The notes under the pieces are model-generated. The model had not been told where the DNA came from, did no database searches, and worked only from the letters and a program-made list of their open reading frames with translations. From assembly GCA_001797815.1 (NCBI GenBank), contig MGQK01000041.1, positions 5,523-18,120 of the forward strand: a stretch of 12,598 bases of DNA, read 5' to 3'. The first letter of the stretch is position 1; the number at the start of each line of letters is the position of its first letter. Positions 6,143-10,155 of the stretch are shown here, one piece after another. A program made the translations under genes and the position numbers. This stretch comes from Deltaproteobacteria bacterium RBG_13_61_14. GTDB taxonomy: Bacteria > RBG-13-61-14.

Positions 6143-7384
6143 ATGGACCTGCCCCGCGTTCTCCGGGTGCGCCGGCAGTTTGACCGCGCCGAGATCGCCG
6201 ATGTCCCGGCCGAGGTCCGGCGCGTGCTCGAGGCCGCCGGCCTGGCCGAGCGCATCCGGCCGGGCCTGAGCATCGCCGTCACCGCCGGCAGCCGGGGCAT
6301 TGACCGGATGGTGGAGGTTTTGGCCGCGTTGGTGACCTGGCTGAAGGAGCACGGCGCCAAACCCTTCCTGGTCCCGGCCATGGGCTCGCATGGCGGAGCT
6401 ACTGCGGAGGGCCAAGCGGCTTTGCTCGCCGGGTTGGGCATCACCGAGACAAGCGCCGGCGCGCCGATCCGATCCTCCATGGAGACCCGGGTGCTGGGCG
6501 TGGTGGACGGTCTGCCGGTGCACCTGGATCGGCTGGCCGCGGAGGCGGACGGGATCGTGGTGGTCAACCGGATCAAGCCCCACACCAGTTACCACGGGCC
6601 GTGCGAGAGCGGGCTTATTAAGATGCTGGCCGTGGGCTTGGGCAAGCGCGAAGGGGCGGAGGCGGTGCACCGCCGGGGCCCCCGGGCGCTCCGCGACACG
6701 GTGCCGCGCATGGCCGAGTTCATCTTGGCCCGGGCCTCGGTGTTCTTCGGCCTGGCCCTGGTCGAGAACGCCTTTGACCGGTTGGCCCGGATCGAAGCAG
6801 TGCCGGCTAACGCCATGCTCAGCCGCGAGCCGGGCTTGCTGGCAGAGGCGGAGGCGCGCCTGCCCAGCCTGCCTTTTCACGAGATTGACGTTTTGGTGGT
6901 GGACCGGATCGGGAAAGAGATCAGCGGCACCGGCCTGGACACCAACGTGATCGGCCGCTTGCACATCGCGGGCGAGCCGGAACCCGAACTGCCCCGCATC
7001 CGGCGGATCGTGGCCTTGGACCTCTCTCCCGGCGCCCAAGGCGGCGCTTACGGCATCGGGCTGGCCGACGTTACCACCGAGCGCCTGGTCCGAAAGATTG
7101 ATCCCGCCCAAGTCCGGGAGAACGCGCTGGCTTCCACCTTCCTGGAGCGCGCCAAGGTCCCGATCGCCTTTGCCACCGACCGCGAGGCCATTGCCGCGGC
7201 CTTGGCCTGCTCCTGGTGCGAAGACCCGGCCCGCGGCCGCCTGGTCCGGATCCAGGACACGCTCCATCTCGCCGAGCTGATGGTCAGCGAGGACCTGGCC
7301 CAGCGGTCCCTGGCCCCCCTCGAGATCGTCTCCGGGCCAAATCCGCTCCCCTTTAACGCCGAGGGCAATCTAAAAGGATGGTGA
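6143..7384 (+). CDS. LarA-superfamily protein (lactate racemase-like N-terminal domain, DUF2088)
   Basis: A 413-residue protein. MGSHGGAT (residues 80-87), VVVNRIKPHTSYHG (139-152), GLIKMLAVGLGKREGAEAVH (157-176) and DRIGKEISGTGLDTNVIGR (254-272) are hallmarks of the DUF2088/LarA-like group. LarA is a nickel-dependent lactate racemase whose pincer cofactor is held by His and Lys residues. H83, H147, H151, K160 and H176 are candidates for similar roles here, but a true LarA assignment needs alignment. The substrate may be another alpha-hydroxy acid. A stop (TAG, 6134-6136) just upstream makes the ATG at 6143 the first start. A zinc-ribbon gene follows after 3 nt. Cofactor genes larB, larC and larE are not in the window. 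It is divergent from nadB. Family call firm, reaction uncertain. Confidence 0.82.
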   Translation: MDLPRVLRVRRQFDRAEIADVPAEVRRVLEAAGLAERIRPGLSIAVTAGSRGIDRMVEVLAALVTWLKEHGAKPFLVPAMGSHGGATAEGQAALLAGLGITETSAGAPIRSSMETRVLGVVDGLPVHLDRLAAEADGIVVVNRIKPHTSYHGPCESGLIKMLAVGLGKREGAEAVHRRGPRALRDTVPRMAEFILARASVFFGLALVENAFDRLARIEAVPANAMLSREPGLLAEAEARLPSLPFHEIDVLVVDRIGKEISGTGLDTNVIGRLHIAGEPEPELPRIRRIVALDLSPGAQGGAYGIGLADVTTERLVRKIDPAQVRENALASTFLERAKVPIAFATDREAIAAALACSWCEDPARGRLVRIQDTLHLAELMVSEDLAQRSLAPLEIVSGPNPLPFNAEGNLKGW

Positions 7385-8570: not shown

Positions 8571-9893
8571 TTAAAAAGCCACGGCGATCCGGCCGCGGTA
8601 GTTGATGTCCGAGTGCTGGTCCGGATTGTTCCCGTCATAGGTCGAGGAGTGATCGAACCACTGCCAGGTGACATCCAGGCCGATCCAGAATCCGGGCTTG
8701 ATGAACCAGTTGAGCCCCGCATCCACCGAGCGCACCTTTTCGTCAATGCTCCGCCGGCCCAGGGCTTGGGAAGCCGCGCTGACTTCCCGGCCCCAGGTGC
8801 CCGGCGCCTGGCCCCGGATCTTCTCTTCCTGCGAGTCAAAGGTGACCGTGCTGTAACGGGCCAACAGCTCCACGGCCCCCCAGGAATGGTCGGGCACGAT
8901 CCGCTCGCTGAACGGCTCGCCGGTCAAAACCCAGACCGCGGAGACTTTCCAACCCTGCTCCAAGAGGTTCTCCAAATCGCGGGTCACTTCCGCGTCACCC
9001 ACACCGTCTCCATCCGTGTCCAGGTTGATCAGGACGTGGTCGCGTTCTTCTTGGGAATGGATCCATTCCGCCGCGATCCATAAGGGCTTATAGCGCCAGC
9101 TCAGGTCGGCCTCCCAGCGGGTGCGGTAACCGTTCACCGGGACCGGAGAAAAGAAGGTTAATTCGTTCTGCGTCTTGCCGGTAAAGGAGGTGGTGGCTTC
9201 CCGCACCGGCGAGCGCCGGGCCCGCGCCCCGGACGCGGCCAGGGCGAATTCGCCGGGGAAATCAGGGATGATCTTGTTCAGGAAGATTCTGCCCCGGCCC
9301 ACGTATTCAAAATGGTCGTCGGTGTTATTCTTCATCATGTTTTCGCCGGTAAACAATCCCAGTTCCAGGCGGGCCATTTCATTGCGGGGATGGAGGCCGA
9401 TGGACACGCCCCGGCTGCGCCGCAGTTCCAGGTTGGCGGCCAGCGACCTTTCCAGGAAAGGATTGGTCAGAAAGGACTCCAGCCGCTCGGCGCTGAAGGG
9501 CATCTTCATTTGCCCGGCCCGGACGTCCACCCAGGGCGCGATCTGGTAAATCATGATCCCATCCATGAGCAGGGTGTCGGTGGATTCCAATCCGGTCTGG
9601 ATAAAAAAGGTGATCTTCTCGTAAAGGATGCCGGTGAGGACCACCCGCGCCCGCCGGATGGTGAAGTTGTTCTCCTGCGAACCCGCGCCGGCCAGGTTCT
9701 CTTCATGGCGGTCATAGCCCAAAAAGTCCAGGTGGACCGCGGCGTGAAAATCCAGGCCGGTCTTGGGGGCGGGAGCCTCGAGGTGAAAGAGCGCCTGCTT
9801 GTCATTCGGTGCGGCGTCGGCGCGTTGCCCCCAGGCAAATAACCCCAGGATGGCAGCCGGGATGGCAATCCATTTCAATCCCAAGTTCTTCAC
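8571..9893 (-). CDS. OprO/OprP-type porin (Porin_O_P family), anion or phosphate-selective type
   Basis: A 440-residue outer membrane porin. Residues 1-27 are a signal peptide (KWIAIPAAILGLFAWGQRADA). Features typical of the family are NNFTIRRARVVLTGILYEKITFFIQTG (75-101), APWVDVRAGQMKMPFSAERL (119-138), repeated aromatic beta strands and a C-terminal Phe (RIAVAF). Such porins form trimers that admit phosphate or polyphosphate in Pseudomonas, but distant homologues vary and the substrate is not certain here. A DTDGDGVGD segment (292-300) has the pattern of a calcium-binding thrombospondin type-3 loop and probably lies in an external loop. The start is GTG (9891-9893), with AAAGAGG 10 nt upstream. 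The promoter, a structured leader and a terminator lie in the 370 bases upstream. Confidence 0.85.
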   Translation of the reverse strand: MKNLGLKWIAIPAAILGLFAWGQRADAAPNDKQALFHLEAPAPKTGLDFHAAVHLDFLGYDRHEENLAGAGSQENNFTIRRARVVLTGILYEKITFFIQTGLESTDTLLMDGIMIYQIAPWVDVRAGQMKMPFSAERLESFLTNPFLERSLAANLELRRSRGVSIGLHPRNEMARLELGLFTGENMMKNNTDDHFEYVGRGRIFLNKIIPDFPGEFALAASGARARRSPVREATTSFTGKTQNELTFFSPVPVNGYRTRWEADLSWRYKPLWIAAEWIHSQEERDHVLINLDTDGDGVGDAEVTRDLENLLEQGWKVSAVWVLTGEPFSERIVPDHSWGAVELLARYSTVTFDSQEEKIRGQAPGTWGREVSAASQALGRRSIDEKVRSVDAGLNWFIKPGFWIGLDVTWQWFDHSSTYDGNNPDQHSDINYRGRIAVAF

Positions 9894-9970
9894 CGCGGAA
9901 ATACCTCTTTCCCGAATAACGACTCGCTGCCGTCACCAGTTGGCCTGCTAAGATTAGAACGACCTGGCGC

Positions 9971-10001
9971 AAAAAAGCCAACCCCGCACTTGAAGTTGGC
10001 T
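9971..10001 (-). terminator. Rho-independent terminator inside the porin leader
   Basis: AGCCAAC (10001-9995), a 12-nt loop and GTTGGCT (9982-9976), followed by T to 9971 on the minus strand. It lies about 80 nt before the porin start codon and downstream of the predicted promoter at 10127-10155. Confidence 0.65.
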
Positions 10002-10126
10002 GGCGCAACAGATCTCCTTTCCAAGCACGGGAGCCCGGACCGTTTCCCGACCGACCTTAACGTCCTGTGGCCGTGGGGAATTCCCGGTAGGATCACAGGC
10101 TCGGAAATGAACGAGATTTGGGCAGA
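9971..10126 (-). ncRNA. Candidate structured leader RNA or small RNA upstream of the porin
   Basis: From the predicted start near 10120 to the terminator at 9971 the RNA would be about 150 nt. It can form CCTGTG (10099-10094) with CACAGG (10069-10064), closing over a GGGAATTCCC palindrome (10085-10076). Alternatively GAGCC (10102-10098) pairs with GGCTC (10035-10031) to give a multibranch fold. I do not recognise a known riboswitch class. It may be a terminator-controlled leader of the porin gene or an independent sRNA. No convincing second promoter is seen between 9970 and 9893. Confidence 0.4.
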
Positions 10127-10155
10127 ATTTTGCCCGTTTCAAGGAAGGCTGTCAA
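10127..10155 (-). promoter_or_regulatory. Predicted promoter of the porin leader
   Basis: TTGACA (10150-10155), a 17-nt spacer and CAAAAT (10127-10132) on the minus strand. The -35 box is perfect; the -10 box matches four of six. AT-rich DNA directly upstream (10165-10200) would act as an UP element. Confidence 0.55.

Follow-up and report, generated by a model that had tools for sequence, protein, structure and literature searches.

Among described systems, the closest to the locus reported here are the RNAs of the Moco motif (RF01055), which Regulski et al. (2008; PMC2408646) divided according to stem P3, RNAs that lack it going with tungsten-cofactor genes, a metal assignment that is correlative; RNAs of this class have been reported to control transporters of the inner membrane, synthesis of the cofactor and enzymes that use it. 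The P3-lacking, or Tuco, group has the same aptamer sequence and structure as an RNA that we find in a stretch of 12,598 nucleotides (the window) from Deltaproteobacteria bacterium RBG_13_61_14, with P3 absent and a terminator 3' of the aptamer, and in both cases a genome has multiple copies, one other of them lying on tup and moa genes. The window RNA differs in having an outer-membrane porin as its target and in one otherwise invariant base, at position 10034. Neither 'porin' nor 'outer membrane' occurs in the main text of Regulski et al. (2008), and the open-access papers that we searched contain no report of a porin under RF01055; the RNA class itself is known, and the porin is probably new as a riboswitch target.

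Three further systems bear on the protein. The Pseudomonas aeruginosa porins OprP, for phosphate, and OprO, for pyrophosphate (2o4v and 4rjw), belong to the same family and share the predicted fold (TM 0.71 and 0.69 relative to the query), although the window porin has only about 15-17% identity to them in structural alignment, is under the control of a cofactor riboswitch and has relatives tied to the transport of tungstate. ExtI of Geobacter sulfurreducens (PMC5877670, NF040900), proposed to serve a non-phosphate oxyanion, is a distant relative with another operon and other regulation, and the window porin, at 27.7 bits against a cut-off of 150, falls outside its family. Operons for the tungstate importer TupABC share both predicted substrate and riboswitch class with the window locus, and related porins are found inside such operons, whereas the window porin is in its own genome a separate transcription unit, standing alone and away from the tup genes, which counts against our reading. 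We know of no protein that has been assigned to the passage of tungstate or molybdate across the outer membrane.

The leader of the porin gene measures about 150 nt up to and including the U run, with a further 78 nt to the GTG codon at 9893 (Table 1). The 5' end of the aptamer lies about 9 nt past the candidate promoter, approximately where transcription would be expected to start, the start being predicted near 10120 from the position of the promoter; the consensus scan returns a weaker promoter-like site upstream (10213-10185, 9/12 matches) and no second promoter between 9971 and the porin start. The leader matches RF01055 in cmscan with 51.7 bits (curated cut-off 36, E 1.2e-11) over the full length of the model, positions 1-135, and has the covarying P1, P2 and P4 stems and the conserved GAAA tetraloop and core, by which it is almost certainly a member of this known class. 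Compensatory changes are seen in 16 of the 27 consensus pairs in an alignment of P3-lacking RNAs with 19 rows (18 different RNAs, one having been entered twice, as L002 and L005). The folding energy of the leader is not above chance when compared with dinucleotide shuffles (z -0.8), so that the presence of several stems proves nothing by itself; it is the covariance-model match that does.

An earlier note on this DNA had described a structured leader of about 150 nt, with several stems and a strong terminator, lying between the only good promoter and the porin gene, had offered a riboswitch or attenuator, or a separate sRNA, as its explanation with no known class evident, and had pointed to an Rfam/Infernal scan and a covariation analysis as the means of checking it. 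The layout is borne out, as is the riboswitch or attenuator, while the stems are not supported by folding energy and an sRNA is not needed as an explanation; the scan and the compensatory changes both favour the proposal, and the scan corrects the note as to the class. Of the two findings that the note held would tell against it, a promoter downstream of 9971 and the lack of any conserved structure, neither was obtained.

Table 1. Features of the porin gene and its leader, in window coordinates.
Feature	Position	Strand	Description
Promoter, sigma-70-like (candidate)	10127..10155	(-)	Consensus scan 10/12; TTGACA 10155-10150, CAAAAT 10132-10127, spacing 17
Moco/tungsten riboswitch aptamer RF01055, P3 absent	9998..10118	(-)	cmscan 51.7 bits, model 1-135; 37/40 conserved positions
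Proposed antiterminator, 5' arm	10020..10032	(-)	UCCCGUGCUUGGA; in conserved aptamer, P5 and junction; pairs with 9994-9982
Proposed antiterminator, 3' arm	9982..9994	(-)	UUCAAGUGCGGGG; covers end of terminator 5' arm, loop and start of 3' arm
Intrinsic terminator stem-loop	9976..10001	(-)	10 pairs, loop 6, then TTTTT at 9975-9971
Shine-Dalgarno-like AGAGGT	9903..9908	(-)	9 nt 5' of GTG start; read from sequence
Porin_O_P gene, proposed tungstate/molybdate porin	8571..9893	(-)	440 aa, signal peptide-like N terminus, GTG start 9893

A set of 101 other RF01055 RNAs has 40 positions with conservation of 90% or higher, and the window aptamer keeps 37 of these. At position 10034 it has G where all other aligned RNAs have C, a substitution that counts against our reading. 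Stem P3 is missing, its columns being deleted in the RF01055 alignment, as it is in all seven RF01055 RNAs of the small phylum to which the window belongs (three genomes examined). The window RNA probably belongs to the proposed tungsten-cofactor variant, and the ligand that we infer is the tungsten rather than the molybdenum form of the cofactor. We note that the metal cannot always be read from P3: at loci L271 and L272, in genomes G136 and G271, the RNA in front of a tupA-tupA'-porin-tupB-tupC operon has a P3-like hairpin, the feature of the supposed Moco form.

An expression platform is present 3' of the aptamer, consisting of the terminator (10001-9976) and a possible antiterminator pairing in which UCCCGUGCUUGGA (10032-10020) and UUCAAGUGCGGGG (9994-9982) could form 13 contiguous pairs, a number reached in 2 of 10,000 shuffled terminators (2e-4). 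The minimum-energy fold includes the antiterminator when the RNA ends at 9982 or 9980, and prefers the terminator when it ends at 9976; static folding of the full-length leader favours the terminator together with a structure other than the aptamer, so that read-through by the unliganded RNA would depend on the order of folding. The same aptamer strand pairs better with the terminators of the 37 RF01055 loci that have one nearby than with 252 unrelated control terminators (p 2e-8, a value that shared ancestry makes too small), the parts of the strand that are used differing by locus (CCCCCCG/CGGGGGG, CCCGUGUU/AACACGGG, GAAAGGAG/CUCCUUUC). Because the antiterminator takes bases that the aptamer needs for P5 and the junction, and the closed aptamer frees the terminator, the leader is likely to be an OFF switch that works by antitermination. 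This gives the RF01055 class a proposed antitermination mechanism that can be tested by mutation.

The porin matches PF07396 (Porin_O_P) with 82.5 bits (E 4.8e-23; curated cut-off 20.9), and the best PDB matches of its AlphaFold2 model (pLDDT 77) are 2o4v (OprP, E 6.5e-20) and 4rjw (OprO, E 5.2e-19), such that an OprP/OprO-like beta barrel is predicted. A PDB search with the porin sequence profile gave only weak BamA matches, a search of the genome contigs by peptide patterns returned no relatives of the window porin. Viral contigs gave no match. Compared by BLAST with 26 other porins, its four best matches are all tup-linked (G064, 1e-35; G062, 1e-28; G093, 1e-26; G231, 1e-22), and the porins of G001 and G002 are distant from it. 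Tree tests do not reject its grouping with the G064 and G062 porins (p 0.23) or with sulfate-linked porins (p 0.19), and reject a clade with phosphate-linked porins (p 0.029). It forms a long branch with no firm placement among the tup-linked porins, and this too counts against our reading. A single tungstate-porin clade of all tup-linked members together with the window porin was considered and is rejected (p 0.003), which suggests repeated recruitment, the tup linkage seeming to have arisen more than once. Some Porin_O_P members adjoin sulfate-type or phosphate-type transport genes, and the family thus looks like one of oxyanion porins in which the operon hints at the anion. Porin_O_P genes are found immediately 5' of genes for a sulfate-type permease and binding protein at loci L233, L235, L236 and L240; their products group in a supported clade, which is likely to be a sulfate-porin subfamily.

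The association of porin and riboswitch recurs in other genomes. In a sample of 386 genomes from across the domain, 78 have RF01055, 108 have the porin as judged by a profile, and 25 have both; the porin lies within about 5 kb downstream of an RF01055 RNA, on the same strand, in eight of these 25, with 0.03 expected. The window genome, G062 and G064 were sources of the profile and the other five (G313, G136, G271, G001 and G002) are independent of it, and when related genomes are counted once four groups remain (P ~4e-8). In a second small phylum the order is RNA-porin-tupA-tupB-tupC in G064 and RNA-tupABC-porin in G062, and in G063 two tandem RNAs and tupABC are followed by an RNA and a porin-like start at the end of the contig. 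Tandem RNAs precede porin-tupA in G313, G136 and G271 have RNA-tupA-tupA'-porin-tupB-tupC (in G271 with one further gene first), and in G001 and G002 the order is RNA-kelch lipoprotein-diheme GEGP protein-porin. This repeated linkage makes it likely that the porin is the outer-membrane entry for a metal oxyanion.

Members of a further phylum, G093 and G231, have porin-tupABC, and no RF01055 RNA above the cut-off was found in that phylum. In G093 a gene with an N-terminal helix-turn-helix-like sequence (L227:5607-6506(-)) precedes porin-tupABC, and it is possible that this encodes a protein regulator that replaces the RNA. We left out of account the Geobacter porin Gbem_4037, a candidate by its position beside Mo-cofactor genes: it is called orthologous to Gmet_1042 (PMC2996986), and the assignment of moeB is inconsistent, being Gmet_1042 in the text but Gmet_1043 in a table of the same paper (PMC2700814).

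The window's genome contains three RF01055 RNAs, with scores of 75.3, 64.8 and 51.7 bits, the window copy being the lowest. Another of them heads a tupABC-moeA-moaC-MOSC-moaA cluster, in which tupA adjoins tupB and tupC and matches the NCBIfam TupA model with 225 bits, below the cut-off of 400; there are also six AOR-type (AFOR_N) gene matches in the genome. Genes of the AOR type occur in E. coli as well, so that tup and AOR genes are no more than suggestive as a sign of tungsten use. The third RNA, on contig C125 (L005:10500-10624(-)), has a good terminator, after which there is no more than a short ORF that resembles a signal peptide and soon ends. Genes for an outer-membrane protein and CbiMNQO lie 570 nt further on and have their own promoter-like site. 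Control of these genes by the C125 RNA was considered and rejected because the ORF ends early and a separate promoter-like site intervenes, and the case was not counted; this RNA seems to have lost its target and may be a relic.

We put at about two in three the probability that the window carries a transcriptional OFF switch of the P3-lacking Moco/tungsten class acting on an outer-membrane porin for tungstate, and possibly molybdate, that is repressed by the finished cofactor. With little Tuco in the cell, pairing of the terminator loop and 3' arm with the aptamer's conserved 3' strand would form the antiterminator and let the polymerase read through, and the porin would be made; when Tuco is plentiful, the aptamer would be held closed, the terminator would form, and the porin would be turned off. 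The substrate that we infer is tungstate, which the porin, possibly along with molybdate, would admit to the periplasm, where TupA would pass tungstate to the TupBC importer. A riboswitch-controlled porin in tungstate importer operons of several unrelated groups would be a candidate for the outer-membrane step of tungstate and molybdate uptake and makes that step testable, and porins annotated as 'phosphate-selective' would gain a better candidate substrate.

The same device could respond to the molybdenum cofactor, with the porin serving mainly molybdate. It was for Moco, in E. coli, that the class was first shown to be responsive (PMC2408646), and both the correlative nature of the P3-based assignment and the P3-bearing RNAs before tup-like operons in G136 and G271 leave room for this; we nonetheless think it unlikely, as P3 is absent from 7/7 RNAs of the window's phylum, the relatives of the porin are adjoined by binding proteins of the TupA type and not the ModA type, and the genome has its six AOR-type genes. 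Whether the window copy is still under ligand control at all is questioned by its score (51.7 bits, where the genome's other two copies have 75.3 and 64.8) and by the substitution at 10034, as would be expected of a decaying aptamer whose terminator attenuates the porin constitutively or yields a short RNA. That score is still above the cut-off, however, 37/40 conserved positions are kept, and promoter, terminator and a 13-bp antiterminator are all in place, such that decay seems very improbable.

Two other explanations concern what the porin does. It could belong to a redox or assembly complex in the outer membrane that is required only while tungsten enzymes are inactive, with the riboswitch as a reporter of cofactor shortage. 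In favour of this, the porin of G001 and G002, with an RNA of the same class in front, follows genes for the kelch lipoprotein and the diheme GEGP protein, and ExtI, a related porin, has an effect on heme proteins without being a proven channel (PMC5877670). But the G001 and G002 porins are the distant ones, the window gene stands alone, and in G064, G062, G136, G271 and G313 the porin is found among tup transport genes, and we regard such a complex as improbable. The earlier note had named phosphate as one ligand to vary, and a phosphate-starvation porin with a phosphate-responsive leader would be in keeping with the name of the family and with OprP and OprO as best structural matches. This phosphate signal is unsupported, 'phosphate-selective' being only a family name and the closest relatives having been found in tup operons; as the aptamer class is moreover unrelated to phosphate and the clade with phosphate-linked porins is rejected, we give this explanation almost no credence.

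RF01055 RNAs have genes for TonB-dependent receptors immediately or a short way downstream at L063:3188-5116(-), L067:5218-7131(+), L069:3718-5655(+), L286, L288, L296 and L300. These loci come from Aminicenantes, Zixibacteria and other lineages, in some cases a lipoprotein gene comes first, and the receptors constitute a second kind of outer-membrane target. Their presence behind RF01055 in several other lineages points to a wider theme that supports the reading of the porin as a riboswitch target. We consider it an evenly balanced proposition that there is a dedicated outer-membrane tungsten step, in which OprO/OprP-type porins, and elsewhere TonB-dependent receptors, would have been recruited repeatedly and independently into a tungsten/molybdenum-cofactor riboswitch regulon that the finished cofactor shuts, and that salvage of the cofactor or its pterin may even take place in lineages that have TonB receptors, ECF transporters and secreted molybdopterin-domain-like proteins.

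Several other genes were noted in the course of this analysis. At L062, L063, L071, L092 and L126, the genes behind P3-lacking RNAs encode ECF transporters whose membrane component is of the PF09819 type and secreted Oxidored_molyb proteins of the sulfite-oxidase fold, possibly an uptake system for cofactor, pterin or metal. The diheme GEGP protein (NF041762; L035:3599-4960(+) and L037:1998-3377(-)) aligns over its C-terminal part with Oxidored_molyb-like proteins in profile comparison (probability 94%, E 9e-8), a likeness not seen by Pfam alone. In one Desulfurellaceae genome, the first gene behind a P3-lacking RNA (L115:6632-7933(+)) encodes a protein of 434 aa with no family match, a C-terminal phenylalanine and the look of an outer-membrane barrel. 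Within the window itself, the gene at 6143-7381 (+) matches NPN_iso_grp_22, an isomerase that depends on the nickel pincer cofactor and belongs to the lactate racemase family.
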